Below, piece by piece: positions 5,541 to 61,889 of a DNA stretch of 64,000 nt (within the stretch, counting starts at the first letter, position 1; every line of letters begins with the position of its first letter). The DNA is from Vagococcus sp. CY52-2 (GTDB lineage: Bacteria; Bacillota; Bacilli; Lactobacillales; Vagococcaceae), in the NCBI RefSeq assembly GCF_022655055.1, contig NZ_CP093384.1:124001-188000 (forward strand), in the 5' to 3' direction. The notes under the pieces are model-generated. The model saw nothing but the letters and a program-made list of their open reading frames with translations, made no database searches and was not told the DNA's origin. Both the position numbers and the translations under genes were made by a program.

Positions 5541-6137
5541 ATGTCAAATTTTGTAGAACTATTAAAAAAACGTCGTTCAATATATAATCTTGGGAAAAAT
5601 ATCTCTCTATCTAATGATGAAATTGTAGAATTAGTAACAGAAGTTGTCAGAGAATCTCCTACTGCTTTTAATTCTCAAAGTCAACGTGTAGTATTTTTAT
5701 TTGATGGTGCACATGAAAAATTATGGAGTATGACTGAAGAGTTATTAAAACCTTTAACACCACCAGAGGCATTTGAAAATACAAAAGAAAAATTAAAAGG
5801 ATTTGCTAATGGAAAAGCAACCATTTTATTTTTTGAAGACACAGATATTGTGAAAGGATTACAAGAACAATTTGCGTTATATGCAGAAAACTTTCCTATT
5901 TGGTCGGAACAGGCAAGTGGTCTAACTCAATCCAATGTTTGGACAGCCCTTGCAGAAAAAAATATCGGGGCTAATTTACAACATTACAATCCAATTATTG
6001 ATGAATCCGTATCAAATGAGTGGGGTATTCCACAGAATTGGAAATTACGTGGCCAATTAGTGATTGGATCCATTGAGTCTCCTGCTCTAGAAAAAGAATA
6101 TATGGAAAATGTCGATCGTTTTAAACGTTTTAATTAA
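5541..6137 (+). CDS. Nitroreductase family protein (Frm2/Hbn1/CinD-like)
   Basis: 198 residues forming a single nitroreductase fold: the N-terminal LLKKRRSIYNLGK motif that contacts FMN, the central SPTAFNSQSQR segment, and the C-terminal NWKLRGQLVIG. The short length and lack of a separate NADPH domain fit the fungal Frm2/Hbn1 and lactococcal CinD branch, which reduces nitro compounds and quinones and is often induced by copper or oxidative stress. The start ATG follows AAAGGA with suitable spacing. The gene stands alone behind an operator-like inverted repeat, so it is probably stress-inducible. The natural substrate cannot be read from the sequence. Confidence 0.8.
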   Translation: MSNFVELLKKRRSIYNLGKNISLSNDEIVELVTEVVRESPTAFNSQSQRVVFLFDGAHEKLWSMTEELLKPLTPPEAFENTKEKLKGFANGKATILFFEDTDIVKGLQEQFALYAENFPIWSEQASGLTQSNVWTALAEKNIGANLQHYNPIIDESVSNEWGIPQNWKLRGQLVIGSIESPALEKEYMENVDRFKRFN

Positions 6138-6166
6138 TACTTGATGGATTCATAAAAAGTTCTTAT

Positions 6167-6195
6167 TTGAATAGAAGAAATATCATATTTATTAT
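6167..6195 (+). promoter_or_regulatory. Promoter of small RNA copy A
   Basis: TTGAAT (6167-6172), 17 bases, then TATTAT (6190-6195). The predicted start is near 6203, leading straight into the small-RNA candidate. The RNA ends at a terminator about 105 bases on and contains no gene, which supports a dedicated RNA promoter. Confidence 0.65.
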
Positions 6196-6202
6196 CTACT
6201 CT

Positions 6203-6310
6203 ATAAGCATACCAACAAAACAACCCTAACAAACTTTTTCATTTTATTTACTCCTCCAAAGTAAATAAAACAACTCCTTTAGTCACTAGTATAAACTAGT
6301 GACTTTTTTA
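6203..6310 (+). ncRNA. Candidate small RNA, copy A (anti-SD hairpin family)
   Basis: About 106 nt from the predicted start to the T-run. The 5' part is unpaired and contains ACAACCCTAAC. A perfect 11-bp hairpin follows: TTTTATTTACT (6242-6252) with AGTAAATAAAA (6260-6270), loop CCTCCAA. Next comes single-stranded CAACTCCTTT, then a terminator with a 10-bp stem AGTCACTAGT/ACTAGTGACT (6281-6290, 6295-6304), loop ATAA and six Ts. The loop and linker are complementary to Shine-Dalgarno sequences. The stretch 6239-6256 is the exact complement of an SD plus AUG. Related copies lie at 48143-48243 and 61779-61889. The assignment as an RNA is inferred from promoter, terminator and conserved structure. 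Confidence 0.7.
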
Positions 6311-6550
6311 TGACGATTAAAGTGCTATTCAAATAACAAATACATTCTTTTTTTGATTAACAATACATTTCAATTAATCTGAAAATCGATTAAAAACAGA
6401 ATAACGAAAGTAGAATGAAATGTTTTTGTAACATTTCCTTTATCTATTTGACATATCACTATGTTAAAATAACGGAGTCGTCAAGGAAAGAGAAATTAAT
6501 AATTAAACACATTTTATATAAATTTAGACAAGTTATTCGGAGGAAGAAAA
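6311..6550. other. Leader region of the CHAP hydrolase gene, nothing definite
   Basis: 240 AT-rich bases between the small-RNA terminator and the CHAP gene. TTGACA at 6448-6453 has no -10 at proper spacing, so the promoter is uncertain. The leader after it would be close to 90 bases. I see no riboswitch or stable hairpin here. Confidence 0.5.
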
Positions 6551-9782: not shown

Positions 9783-9988
9783 ATACAGATATTGTCTTGG
9801 AATAGTAGAGGGTGAGTTTTATTTTAGAGAGGAGTCGGGTGGTGGAAAGACTCTATCAAGCCCCCTTGAACCTACCAAGAAGCATCGTTTAGTTAACGTT
9901 ATCAACTAATGAAGTTGTAAAGTATGATTCTACTTTAAAGCAAGGTGGCACCGCCTATTTTGGTCCTTGCAAAGTAGAGTCTTTTTTT
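9783..9988 (+). promoter_or_regulatory. T-box riboswitch, proline-specific, controlling proS
   Basis: The T-box sequence AAGGTGGCACCGCC (9943-9956 region) is diagnostic. It lies inside a terminator whose stem joins GATTCTACTTT...GCAAGG (from 9926) with CCTTGC...AGTAGAGTC (9964-9981), followed by seven Ts. The Stem I region shows AGAGAGGAG and GGTGGTGGAAA. The specifier context GAACCTACC places a CCU proline codon in the usual GAA-codon-ACC setting. T-boxes read uncharged tRNA: uncharged tRNA-Pro would stabilise the antiterminator and allow proS transcription. The specifier reading agrees with the gene controlled. Confidence 0.93.
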
Positions 9989-10019: not shown

Positions 10020-11465
10020 ATGGCTAAAAAACAAGGCTTTGTCAAACAAATTACAAGTAGAGAGGATGATTTTGCAAAATGGTATACAGATGTTTGCCTT
10101 AAGTCGGAACTGTGTGATTACTCTAGCGTAAAAGGATCAATGGTTATCCGACCAACAGGAACCGCAATTTGGGAAAAAATCCGTGATGTAGTGGATGCCA
10201 GGTTAAAGGAAACAGGGCATCAAAATGTGATGATGCCACTACTTGTCCCAGAACATTTATTATTAAAAGAAGCGGAGCATGTTGAGGGATTTGCTCCAGA
10301 AGTTGCTTGGGTAACAATGGGCGGTGAAACAAAGTTAAGTGAACGCTTAGCGATTCGTCCAACGTCAGAAGTGTTGTTTTGTGAGCATTTTAAAACAGTG
10401 ATTCATTCTCATCGTGATTTACCAGTCTTGTATAATCAATGGGCGAATGTCATGCGTTGGGAAAAAAATACTCGCCCGTTTTTACGCACAACAGAATTTT
10501 TTTGGCAAGAGGGTCATACTTGTCATGTGAGTCATGAAGAAGCAGAGAAAGAAGCGTTAATGATTCTTGATATGTATGTGGATGTTTGTGAAAATATTCT
10601 AGCTATCCCCGTAGTAACAGGTGTTAAATCAGAAAGTGAAAAATTTGCTGGAGCAGAAAAAACCTATACAAATGAAACGTTGATGTATGATGGAAAAGCA
10701 TTGCAAATTAATACCTCTCATCATTTAGGAGATCATTTTGGTAAAGCATTTGACATCACTTACACAGATAAGGAAGGAAAAGAGCAGTTTGTTTATACAA
10801 CGTCATGGGGGCTAACAACACGTACTATTGGTGGAATGATTATGGTTCATAGTGACGATCGTGGGTTAGTTTTACCTCCAAGAATTGCTCCAATACAGGT
10901 TATCATCATCCCTATCGCCCAACATAAAGAAGGTGTCTTAGATAAAGCAGATGAATTAAAAGGTATGTTATCAGATGTGGCAACGATTAAAGTAGACGAT
11001 AGCGACAAGCAACCTGGCTGGAAATTTAGTGAAGCTGAAATGAAAGGCTATCCTATTCGTATTGAAATGGGACCTAAAGATATTGAAAATAATCAAGTTA
11101 TTGTCGTTCGACGAGATACCCTAGAAAAAATAACCGTACCGTTTGATGACACATTGCCAACCGTTATCTCTGAATTATTAGAAGCCATTCACCATGACAT
11201 GTTAGCTAAAGCACGAAAACGTCAAGAAGAAAAAACGCGTATTGCCACAACAAAAGAAGAGTTTAATCGATTAATCGAAGAAGGCGGATTTGTATTAGCA
11301 CCATGGTCAGGTGATGAAGCTGTGGAAGAGTTAATCAAAGAACAAACAGGTGCTACGTCTCGTTGCTGGAGTTTTGATCATCAACAAGATGATTTAACAG
11401 GATTGAAAGATTTATGGAACGGTAAGCCCGCTAAGTACATGATGCATTGGGCAAAAGCTTATTAA
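10020..11465 (+). CDS. proS: Prolyl-tRNA synthetase, archaeal/eukaryotic type
   Basis: 481 residues, a class II synthetase that attaches proline to tRNA-Pro. It starts at ATG after CAGGAGAAG. Visible motifs include RPTGTAIWE, the RPTSE of motif 2, WGLTTRTIGG near motif 3 and IRIEMGPKDIENNQVIVVRRD in the anticodon-binding domain (written in parts: IRIEMGPKDI, NNQVIVVRRD). It ends in Tyr (MMHWAKAY), as archaeal/eukaryotic-type enzymes do. The bacterial-type enzyme is near 570 residues with an editing insertion, which is absent here. The gene is controlled by the proline T-box directly upstream. A second, bacterial-type ProRS may exist elsewhere, but that cannot be judged from this window. Confidence 0.95.
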   Translation: MAKKQGFVKQITSREDDFAKWYTDVCLKSELCDYSSVKGSMVIRPTGTAIWEKIRDVVDARLKETGHQNVMMPLLVPEHLLLKEAEHVEGFAPEVAWVTMGGETKLSERLAIRPTSEVLFCEHFKTVIHSHRDLPVLYNQWANVMRWEKNTRPFLRTTEFFWQEGHTCHVSHEEAEKEALMILDMYVDVCENILAIPVVTGVKSESEKFAGAEKTYTNETLMYDGKALQINTSHHLGDHFGKAFDITYTDKEGKEQFVYTTSWGLTTRTIGGMIMVHSDDRGLVLPPRIAPIQVIIIPIAQHKEGVLDKADELKGMLSDVATIKVDDSDKQPGWKFSEAEMKGYPIRIEMGPKDIENNQVIVVRRDTLEKITVPFDDTLPTVISELLEAIHHDMLAKARKRQEEKTRIATTKEEFNRLIEEGGFVLAPWSGDEAVEELIKEQTGATSRCWSFDHQQDDLTGLKDLWNGKPAKYMMHWAKAY

Positions 11466-48131: not shown

Positions 48132-48142
48132 TTGCCATAAAA

Positions 48143-48243
48143 TAAAAAACTACCAGTCATATGACTGGTAGAAAAAAGGAGTTGTTTTATTTACTTTGGG
48201 GGAGTAAATAAAGTAAAAAAATGTAGGGTTGTTTGTTACTACA
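48143..48243 (-). ncRNA. Candidate small RNA, copy B
   Basis: Read on the minus strand it has the same plan as copy A. A -10 TATTAT (48250-48255 complement) precedes an unpaired ACAACCCTAC. A hairpin follows (arms 48186-48195 and 48203-48212 in window coordinates) with loop CCCCCAA, then single-stranded CAACTCCTTTTTTC. The terminator is a 22-base perfect palindrome (48150-48171) with six Ts. The terminator stem shares no sequence with copies A and C, but the hairpin and anti-SD segments are kept. The CAT next to the hairpin in copies A and C is changed here. No convincing -35 is seen. Confidence 0.65.
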
Positions 48244-48313
48244 TAAAGAATAATAAATCTTAGCTATGAAATAAATATGAAGACATGTGTGCAATTATTT
48301 GAATAAAATTCGA

Positions 48314-58263: not shown

Positions 58264-59979
58264 ATGGTAAAACGATTCTTTTCGTATTATCGACCGTATA
58301 AAGCATTATTCATTGTCGATTTTACAGGTGCAATTATCGCAGCATTACTTGAATTATCATTTCCGGTTATTGTTAATCAAGTGATTGATAAAATTATGCC
58401 GTTAAAAAATATTCGCTTGATTTTATTAGTCAGTGCGGCATTGTTTGGATTTTATGTCATCAATACCACATTACAGTATGTCGTGGTTTATTTTGGACAT
58501 AAGTTAGGGGTTAATATCGAAACGGATATGCGTAATGAGTTATTTACGCACTTGCAAAAACAACCTTACGATTATTATGACAACCAAAAAACAGGAAAGT
58601 TGATGACACGTTTAACGAGTGATTTATTTGAAATTTCAGAACTGGCTCATCATGGACCAGAAGATGTGTTCATCACGATTATGACACTTGTAGGGGTATT
58701 TTTATTGATGTTTCAAATTCATCCTCAACTAGCTTTTGCGACAGCTGTGATGGTGCCTTTCATTACGATTGCATTAGTCTTTTTCAATAAAAAAATGACA
58801 AAAGTCAATACAACGATTTATGAAAATCTTGGTGAATTTAACGCAGGAATTGAAGCCAGTGTGAGTGGAATTCGTGTGACGCAAGCTTTTGCCAATGAAG
58901 AACATGAGGTCACTCGGTTTGCCGGACTAAATGAATTATATCGTCAATCAAAACTAGCTTTTTATAAAACGATGGCAGTGAGTTCATCATATAACTATTT
59001 GATGATTCGGTTGATTAATTTATTTGCTTTATTATTTGGGTCTTATTACACGATACGTGGGGACATAACCAATGGGAATTTCGTTGGGTTTATCTTGTTA
59101 TCAAATGTGTTTGCTAGACCAATTGAGAAAATCAATATTATGATTGAGAGTTATCCAAAAGGGTTTGCCGGATTCAAGCGATTTGTTGAAGAGATTGACA
59201 AAGAGCCCTCTATCCAAGATAGTGACACGGCAGTTGACTTAAAACCAGTGACAGGAAACATTGAATACAGAGATGTTTCATTTAGCTACAGTGATGGCAC
59301 GCAAGTATTTGATAACTTATCTTTAGATATAAAATCAGGGGAAACAGTGGCTTTTGTTGGGCCAAGTGGGGCAGGGAAAACAACCTTATGCCATTTATTA
59401 CCACGCTTTTATGATATTGATAGTGGTGATATTTTGATTGATGGTCAAAACATTCAAGACGTTACATTAAAATCATTGCGTGAACAAATTGGATTAGTCC
59501 AACAAGATGTCTTTTTATTTCCAGGAACGATTAAGGAAAATATTTTATATGGAAGATTAGATGCAACAGAAGAAGATATGCTAGAGGCCGTGAAACTCGC
59601 TCATTTAGAACAAGTTATAGACGGCTTGCCTGATGGGTTAGACACAGTCATCGGCGAACGTGGTGTGAGATTATCAGGCGGACAGAAACAGCGTGTGGCG
59701 ATTGCTCGTATGTTTTTAAAGAATCCACCAATTTTAATTTTAGATGAAGCCACATCAGCTCTTGATACAGAAACAGAACAAGTGATTCAAGAGTCACTAG
59801 GTTCACTGGCTAAAGGACGCACGACTCTGATCATCGCACACCGTTTAGCGACAATTAAGGATGCAACTCGCATTGTTGTCATTGATACAACAGGTATCGT
59901 TGAAAGTGGCACACATGAAGAGTTAATGCAAAAACAAGGAGCATATAAAAAATTATATGACGCACAATTTAGAAACTAA
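58264..59979 (+). CDS. ABC exporter, fused permease/ATPase (multidrug or lipid type)
   Basis: 571 residues. Six membrane helices (about 1-310) and an ATPase with Walker A GPSGAGKTT (near 366), Q-loop GLVQQDVFLFPGT, signature LSGGQKQR, Walker B ILILDEATSALD and the H-loop His. The organisation is a type IV half-transporter that works as a dimer, like MsbA or YknU-type exporters. No partner half-transporter is adjacent, so a homodimer is likely. The substrate cannot be told. ATG follows TAGGAGGAGT, whose GGAGGAGT (58253-58260) is complementary to the small-RNA loop. It has its own terminator. Confidence 0.9.
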   Translation: MVKRFFSYYRPYKALFIVDFTGAIIAALLELSFPVIVNQVIDKIMPLKNIRLILLVSAALFGFYVINTTLQYVVVYFGHKLGVNIETDMRNELFTHLQKQPYDYYDNQKTGKLMTRLTSDLFEISELAHHGPEDVFITIMTLVGVFLLMFQIHPQLAFATAVMVPFITIALVFFNKKMTKVNTTIYENLGEFNAGIEASVSGIRVTQAFANEEHEVTRFAGLNELYRQSKLAFYKTMAVSSSYNYLMIRLINLFALLFGSYYTIRGDITNGNFVGFILLSNVFARPIEKINIMIESYPKGFAGFKRFVEEIDKEPSIQDSDTAVDLKPVTGNIEYRDVSFSYSDGTQVFDNLSLDIKSGETVAFVGPSGAGKTTLCHLLPRFYDIDSGDILIDGQNIQDVTLKSLREQIGLVQQDVFLFPGTIKENILYGRLDATEEDMLEAVKLAHLEQVIDGLPDGLDTVIGERGVRLSGGQKQRVAIARMFLKNPPILILDEATSALDTETEQVIQESLGSLAKGRTTLIIAHRLATIKDATRIVVIDTTGIVESGTHEELMQKQGAYKKLYDAQFRN

Positions 59980-61778: not shown

Positions 61779-61889
61779 TAAAAAAACCTTGAATGGCTTA
61801 ACCATTCAAGGAAGGAGTTGTTTTTATTTACTTTGGAGGAGTAAATAAAATGAAAAAGTTTGTTAGGGTTGTTTTGTTGGTACATTTAT
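61779..61889 (-). ncRNA. Candidate small RNA, copy C
   Basis: The minus strand repeats copy A almost exactly through the conserved part. It has ACAACCCTAAC, an 11-bp hairpin (arms 61822-61832 and 61840-61850) with loop CCTCCAA, and CAACTCCTTC. The terminator is different: a 10-bp stem (61787-61796 with 61802-61811), loop TTAAG on the minus strand, seven Ts. A -10 TATAGA (61896-61901 complement) lies 17 bases from TTATTA. As in copy A, an 18-nt stretch (61836-61853) is complementary to a full SD-spacer-AUG. An open frame across this region on the minus strand is not a gene. Confidence 0.7.

Follow-up and report, generated by a model that had tools for sequence, protein, structure and literature searches.

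What are the short, C-rich elements that recur in this part of a Vagococcus genome, and what might they do? In the window, by which we mean the whole 64,000-nucleotide stretch analysed here, three copies can be read and aligned to one common plan: a leader ACAACCCTA, an AT-rich hairpin, a linker CAACTCCTT and a terminator, with a hairpin loop of CCTCCAA in the 6-kb and 61-kb copies and of CCCCCAA in the 48-kb copy. A preliminary description of the sequence had recognized this shared plan, and it holds on reading, alignment and folding. In the folds, the hairpin of each copy is AT-rich and exposes a C-rich loop, the linker CAACUCCUU stays open and a terminator follows; each copy beats all of 200 dinucleotide shuffles (z values in Table 1). 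The terminator stems are, as was also claimed, unlike in sequence yet perfectly paired in every one of the three window copies. One boundary had to be moved: position 6203, originally given as the 5′ end of the first copy, falls within the −10 element TATAAG, and the RNA start of copy 1, judged from the sequence, is probably near 6210. The covariance model R3 matches all three copies end-to-end, with the next best score in the window at 23.1 bits. Because the training set of R3 included the window copies themselves, independent support has to come from the recovery of the family across the genus, from terminators that the core model R1 does not contain, and from covariation.

Table 1. Predicted features of the three copies in the window (positions counted from the first nucleotide of the window)
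Feature	Position	Strand	Evidence
Promoter, copy 1: one good half-site TCATATTT, degenerate upstream half-site, −10 TATAAG (6202-6207)	6148..6209	+	R2 20.1 bits, E 0.0016; PSSM 15.7
sRNA copy 1	6210..6310	+	R3 102.9 bits; fold z −7.0; Ref84 35.1 bits (below cut-off 52)
Anti-Shine-Dalgarno loop CCTCCAA in hairpin 1 of copy 1 (hairpin ~6242-6270)	6253..6259	+	Fold; covarying stem in A9
Single-stranded anti-Shine-Dalgarno linker CAACTCCTT, copy 1	6271..6279	+	Sequence; unpaired in fold
Rho-independent terminator, copy 1, 10-bp stem and T run	6281..6309	+	Sequence, fold, A8 covariation
sRNA copy 2, loop CCCCCAA	48142..48241	-	R3 84.5 bits; fold z −5.9
Promoter, copy 2: TTCATA-N5-TTCATA and TATTAT	48250..48298	-	Sequence; strict box; R2 14.1 bits, E 0.12 (weak)
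sRNA copy 3	61781..61882	-	R3 97.2 bits; fold z −5.8
Promoter, copy 3: TTAACA-N5-TTCACA and TATTATATAA	61885..61945	-	R2 20.1 bits, E 0.0016; PSSM 24.0; looser box only

The three copies first described are real, but they are not the full set: the genome contains at least eight. When the host genome was searched with 60 bases, seven strong matches emerged, namely the three of the window and four that form a tandem array outside it (C1:1694744-1695387, 195-bp period). The eighth copy, at C1:1794803, is divergent, and a long hairpin resembling a terminator follows some way behind it. A covariance-model search over the genus, which had been proposed as a check, likewise turned out in favour of a family: besides the end-to-end match of all three window copies, R1, a core model without the terminator that was built from five own sequences, gave hits in 14 of 14 genus genomes, with 2-13 copies in each. 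These amount to 111 hits at E ≤1, 109 of them above 45 bits; counts out of 109 given below omit the two at or below 45 bits, one of which (41.7 bits) is a plausible divergent member and the other (27.7 bits) probably a chance match. The E-values of R1 and R3 are rough, and in identical tandem copies the cores were located by first occurrence, such that flanking pieces may belong to a sister copy. In named genomes, where records of the own genome are possibly absent, an exact 25-base search found 40 stretches, 39 in Vagococcus and one in Enterococcus timonensis. Copy 2 keeps both flanking neighbours in three other genomes of the genus, and a fourth genome shares the upstream one. Copies also cluster in groups of two to four, spaced by ~210-280 bp or irregularly, at L139 (G007), L160 (G013), L217 (G051), and L376/L385 and L381/L383 (G346). 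Some copies depart from the plan: a single copy in each of V. proximus and V. fessus (L182 and L201) retains the CTCCTCC hairpin, while AAGGACCTC replaces the CTCCTT linker and runs into the terminator stem. At L204 (G044), hairpin 1 and the CUCCUU linker are separated by a long insertion in two of the three copies, and an additional inverted repeat precedes the leader in two of the three.

Is this conservation that of an RNA? In alignment A9, drawn from Vagococcus and from further genera and families and comprising 24 of 44 distinct hairpins, 7 of the 10 pairs of hairpin 1 are altered on both sides, a count as high in 1 of 500 shuffles, and the covariation of 0.330 (0.106 in shuffled alignments) is reached by none of 500. 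For the terminator, alignment A8 of 29 hand-chosen sequences gives a covariation of 0.641 versus 0.250 (again 0/500), with 8 of 9 pairs altered on both sides, but 54 of 500 shuffles reach that same count. Sliding the partner columns abolishes the covariation signal in hairpin and terminator alike; the shuffles do not remove relatedness. Directly after the core, a perfectly paired stem of 8 bp or more and then a T run are found in 101 of the 111 genus hits versus 14 of 531 control stretches, and the terminator is absent from R1. A looser rule accepts 106 of the 111 hits, with 76 distinct stem arms, and also 36/109 and 39/105 controls; as this is about a third of control stretches, we rely on the strict rule. 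The C-rich parts are indeed constant, as had been stated, with the loop CTCCYCCA in 103 of 109 genus cores, the linker CTCCTT in 103 of 109 and both in 99. The 69-nt core has a median of one G and contains any ATG, GTG or TTG in only 3 of 109 cases, and ORFs of at least 70 aa from a mechanical scan overlap 2 of the 109 copies, leaving 107 outside. Between dispersed copies within one genome, median identity is 0.92 in the core, 0.69 in the terminator, 0.66 in the promoter and 0.59 in the outer flanks. Compensatory changes through hairpin and terminator, together with a promoter consensus in front, bear out the earlier claim of selection on an RNA, and the covariation, the promoter consensus, the position outside ORFs and the scarcity of start codons uphold the description as a dispersed small RNA (sRNA) family with anti-Shine-Dalgarno (anti-SD) loops. 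At the level of sequence comparison, we consider RNA-level selection, the promoter consensus, the terminator and the copy number to be established.

Two readings without a trans-acting RNA have to be weighed against these data. Elements that are multicopy, dispersed and in part arranged in tandem could be a mobile palindromic repeat without function, similar to RUP or BOX; however, both helices carry compensatory changes, the loop stays constant over varying stems in several families, a promoter consensus precedes the copies, copies occupy orthologous positions in several species, and the terminators vary while the core is constant, which makes such a repeat extremely improbable. The preliminary description had named a mobile palindrome without covariation beforehand as one outcome that would speak against an RNA family; the helices covary, and the mobile palindrome is rejected on this ground. 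The elements could also be cis-acting leaders or attenuators of the genes behind them, given that the downstream ORF lies on the same strand in 33 of 109 copies, including a copy before the catalase gene. Against this, by mechanical ORF calls, the downstream ORF is on the opposite strand in 70 of 109 copies and none is within reach in 6; downstream genes vary between copies, and in 101 of 111 hits the RNA closes with a perfectly paired stem of ≥8 bp and a T run. We rejected the cis-leader, which we regard as very unlikely, on the orientation of the downstream ORFs.

Given a family of RNA genes, what switches them on? The logo of 104 unique upstream regions contains TTCAYATTT twice, 11 bp apart, preceded by a third, weaker repeat and followed by a −10 element of type TATTATATAA; a clear −35 is lacking. 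Of the two half-sites, the downstream one hardly varies and the upstream one does. Direct repeats without a −35 element are the promoter layout of genes activated by OmpR-family regulators. Of 102 unique upstream regions from Vagococcus, 31 have a strict TTCAYA-N5-TTCAYA box (0.6% in shuffles) and 60 a looser one (3.9% in shuffles). Within the host genome, the strict box stands at copy 2 and the divergent copy and the looser one at copy 3, with neither at copy 1 and the array copies; as its own copies are degenerate, the exact promoter pattern found no match there. R2, a sequence-only promoter model trained on 49 of these promoters, was run on 14 genomes: among the listed hits with E <0.005, all but one belong to these sRNAs, the lone extra site (in G012) leading into a divergent similar RNA, and weaker hits are many. 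The weak R2 score at copy 2 is due to a longer spacing to the RNA start. Elsewhere, a TTCACA-N5-TTCACA repeat (L268, 118030-118078 of G002:C1) lies upstream of an acyltransferase with an OatA-like look, an unverified label; this gene is a possible protein-coding member of the regulon.

Judging from sequence, a PieR-like two-component system is the best candidate for the regulator of the sRNAs. Its response regulator (the type at L224) is closest to the NCBIfam model PieR, at 319 bits and thus short of the cut-off of 450, and its kinase is closest to PieS. The related Listeria system, PieRS, controls secretion chaperones; the genes under it include prsA1 and prsA2 (PMC12234432). Orthologues are found in 36 of 41 relatives at E ≤1e-70, and the 900 bp before 30 of these 36 operons were scanned for the promoter. 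Five genus genomes carry the full promoter ~460 bp upstream of the PieR-like gene, ahead of a small membrane gene, a sixth carries a weaker version, and one genome of another family has a triple repeat before the operon; no promoter of the sRNA type was found in 23 of the 30 scanned, the host genome's operon included. Across the 41 genomes, the PieR-like gene and the RNA family (both forms, see below) occur together in 31, are both missing in 4 and are discordant in 6 (Fisher p 0.006, uncorrected for kinship).

The same sRNAs could also be driven by a different OmpR-family regulator, of the HssR, PhoP, LisR/CroR or CiaR type, acting on the same 11-bp direct repeats, and we treat this as a possible, if less probable, alternative. 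The half-site TTCATATT resembles the HssR repeat, the host genome's PieR-like operon has no box, and over 14 genomes a good sRNA box does not go along with a good box at the PieR-like operon: the strict sRNA box occurs in 18 of 54 upstream regions from genomes with the operon promoter and in 13 of 48 from genomes without it, showing no significant link (p 0.52), and the looser box in 36/54 versus 24/48 (p 0.11). The limited number of strict boxes and this missing correlation weaken the case for a PieR-like regulator and strengthen that for another one. Pulling in the opposite direction, a scan of 30 of the 31 OmpR-type regulator loci in two genomes, with one locus cut short by a contig end, gave scores above 12 for the two PieR-like operons alone (20.4 and 17.0), the next being 10.0 and the antisense maximum 9.0; both genomes had been picked because their PieR-like operon had the promoter. 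In the host genome, no site above 10 lies upstream of any of 10 regulator loci on the regulator's own strand, and the top one, a PSSM 12.8 site at L224 position 473 (minus strand), is upstream of the PieR-like gene itself and points away from it. The host's CiaR-like gene, labelled from reading the sequence, is also split over two frames, which counts against a CiaR-type regulator; this split response regulator lies at L229, G000:C1:1650783-1650995 and upstream.

Does the family already have a name? That it is not a named family is correct insofar as Rfam gave no match in the 64-kb window at gathering thresholds, the window copies falling below every cut-off, but a related Rfam family exists, Ref84 (RF02846, Enterococcus sRNA 84). 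Its leader UACCAAC, hairpin, ACUCCUUU linker and terminator align end-to-end with our RNAs over model positions 1-87, whereas the scores of the window copies, 38.1, 35.1 and 29.9 bits, stay below the cut-off of 52. Ref84 exceeds this cut-off in none of the 14 genus genomes and in 12 of 60 relatives, all outside the genus. The promoters differ as well: Ref84-type RNAs have the strict TTCAYA box in 0 of 15 cases and a sigma-70-type match in 6 of 15, in contrast to the consensus box of the Vagococcus upstream regions (strict in 31/102). Ref84-type RNAs in other genera of the Vagococcus family mostly have the loop ACTCCTCCAGAGT; genomes inspected hold 1-3 copies, and the loop is degenerate in an Enterococcus-like family (f3). 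PMC7724050, the sole relevant paper on Ref84/RF02846 in the open-licence PMC literature, describes E. faecalis sRNA_109 and E. faecium sRNA_093 as resembling Ref84. A second Rfam family, Hrs12 (RF02630), matches copy 2 (48142-48241, minus strand) with 42.5 bits (cut-off 70, E 0.0017; Ref84 has E 0.3 there), with no match listed for copies 1 and 3 in the Rfam search of the window.

Of the proposed likeness to csRNAs, the anti-SD loop in the first stem-loop holds up, but Ref84, rather than csRNA or RsaE, is the nearest named relative, and the CiaR box is missing. Streptococcal csRNAs depend on CiaR, come in several copies and feature direct repeats with N5 spacing, anti-SD sequences and two stem-loops (PMC4438229). 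Our family resembles them in being multicopy, in its N5-spaced repeats of the response-regulator type, in having two stem-loops and, in the folds, in the anti-SD sequence in the loop of the first stem-loop. It differs in that the CiaR box NTTAAG-N5-TTTAAG is found in 0 of 102 unique upstream regions, a TTCAYA-like repeat standing there instead, in that the nonamer [A/C]UCCUAAA[A/C] is found in 0 of 109 cores, and in that the linker of the folded window copies spans 10-14 nt versus about 40 in csRNAs. Multicopy genes, C-rich loops and a single-stranded segment are also shared with LhrC of Listeria, where lhrC1-4 are arranged in tandem. The LhrC model (RF00616), in contrast, has no window match at E ≤5 and reaches 31.3 bits (cut-off 110) in one of 10 loci, from another family; the LhrC motif UCCC occurs in 5 of 109 cores. 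LhrC1-5 are described as multicopy and two-component-induced, masking ribosome sites with C-rich loops and a single strand (PMC4132741). Overall, our RNA would act in the manner of csRNAs and LhrC, yet among the defining features compared it shares only the anti-SD loop of csRNAs. The RsaE model gave no match for 6100-6400 at E ≤10, nor for the window at E ≤5. Titles and abstract starts in the open-licence PMC literature yielded no Vagococcus RNA of such kind, and among those listed on multicopy anti-SD sRNAs and on PieR with sRNAs, the family is not described.

How could such RNAs act? By a modest preference, we favour the view that they are trans-acting sRNAs of ~100 nt that are activated by an OmpR-family regulator, best a PieR-like one, and block SD regions, with a dose set by copy number. 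An OmpR-family response regulator, presumably a stress-sensing one, would bind the TTCAYA-N5-TTCAYA-like repeats that replace a −35 element and activate transcription of a non-coding sRNA from several near-redundant copies. Two C-rich single-stranded segments in it, the loop ACUCCUCCAAAG and the linker CAACUCCUUU, would copy the 3′ end of 16S rRNA, pair with the SD regions of chosen mRNAs and thereby keep ribosomes off, while the number of copies, tandem array included, would set the sRNA dose. Expression, the identity of the regulator, its signal, SD pairing and targets are what we infer here. The preliminary description was right that loop and linker complement ribosome binding sites, since ACUCCUCCAAAG and CAACUCCUUU are SD complements by sequence. 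Instead of pairing with SD regions, the RNA could titrate a protein or another sRNA, for the C-rich loop and the leader could be a protein site and the duplex ranking below gives no compelling target; this we consider unlikely, as both conserved segments, loop and linker, complement SD sequences and related RNAs that have lost hairpin 1 show a C-rich stretch in their terminator loop, just as a retention of SD pairing predicts.

With SD pairing as the favoured mode of action, we ranked duplexes for 46 of the 104 mechanically called ORFs of the window. Comparing start regions with gene interiors of these 46 genes, mean duplex energies are −8.4 versus −6.2 kcal/mol for the loop and −7.3 versus −5.1 kcal/mol for the linker. 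On the same start regions the reversed segments give −7.8 (loop) and −6.4 kcal/mol (linker), such that the real ones are only somewhat better, and this small gap means that base composition explains much of the start-region pairing. The leader pairs with the start regions of the 46 genes no better than its reverse (−6.2 versus −6.5 kcal/mol). A search with a ribosome binding site pattern gave 43 matches versus 14 for its reverse, as expected of any SD pattern, and neither this search nor the duplex ranking of the 46 window ORFs produced a compelling target. The single exact TTTGGAGGA-N7-ATG match precedes an ORF that reads like an acyl-CoA dehydrogenase (our own label), with no known link, and the best pairing in the window is with an ABC transporter at 58264. 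For the 48-kb copy, the loop reaches −12.3 kcal/mol with the catalase start region, and a long G-run before the ATG is present in 1 of 4 relatives inspected; catalase as the target of this copy is a lead only.

Finally, we would like to place the family in the context of the order. R3, a joint model of 29 sequences of which 4 are Ref84-type, has hits in 178 of 395 sampled Lactobacillales genomes and 42 of 80 genera at E ≤0.01, with at most 10 candidates scored per genome; these counts mix box-form and Ref84-type RNAs. Hits in families f8 and f9 are weak (E about 3e-4 to 0.01), and the one f9 hit inspected looks real. One genus of f3, the family whose Enterococcus-like label is inferred, has up to 9 R3 hits per genome; of the copies inspected there, several have lost hairpin 1, and their terminator has a CCCC loop. 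The inspected loci fall into two forms, a Ref84-type form without the box and a box form, often with a ACTCCTCCAAAGT hairpin. Outside the genus, the strict box precedes 28 of 36 box-form RNAs versus 0 of 15 Ref84-type RNAs (0.8% in shuffles), in sets that were sorted by hand, by RNA type and RF02846 score, after the promoters had been seen; left out of both sets were L206, L212, L214, L217 (a Ref84-type tandem pair), L218, L371, two further L204 copies and some R3 hits.

From these sequences, we would class the window family as a sister group of Ref84 that is amplified and driven by the box, the two together probably making up one order-wide family. More tentatively, and with somewhat less than even odds, anti-SD sRNAs in several Lactobacillales families would form an expandable set under the control of a PieR-type system, a third module beside CiaR-csRNA of streptococci and LisR-LhrC of Listeria. 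If this is true, Ref84 would be a branch that escaped to an ordinary promoter, and a two-component system inducing multicopy blockers of ribosome sites would be a recurrent design in low-GC Gram-positives. What Rfam shows as a sub-threshold match of unknown function becomes a family spread over the order, for which a type of regulator, the active segments and a testable mechanism can be predicted. Ref84 gains an evolutionary context as well, being related to sRNAs that transcriptome maps of E. faecalis and E. faecium report. Local amplification of the sRNA genes seems to be recurrent, and the 2-13 copies per genome, with tandem arrays of near-identical copies, offer a natural experiment in sRNA gene dosage. 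The window also holds another probable RNA element, a T-box leader at 9789-9971 on the plus strand (82.6 bits, cut-off 93, E 2e-16), just upstream of an ORF (10020-11465) that matches prolyl-tRNA synthetase with a ProRS-C_1 domain.
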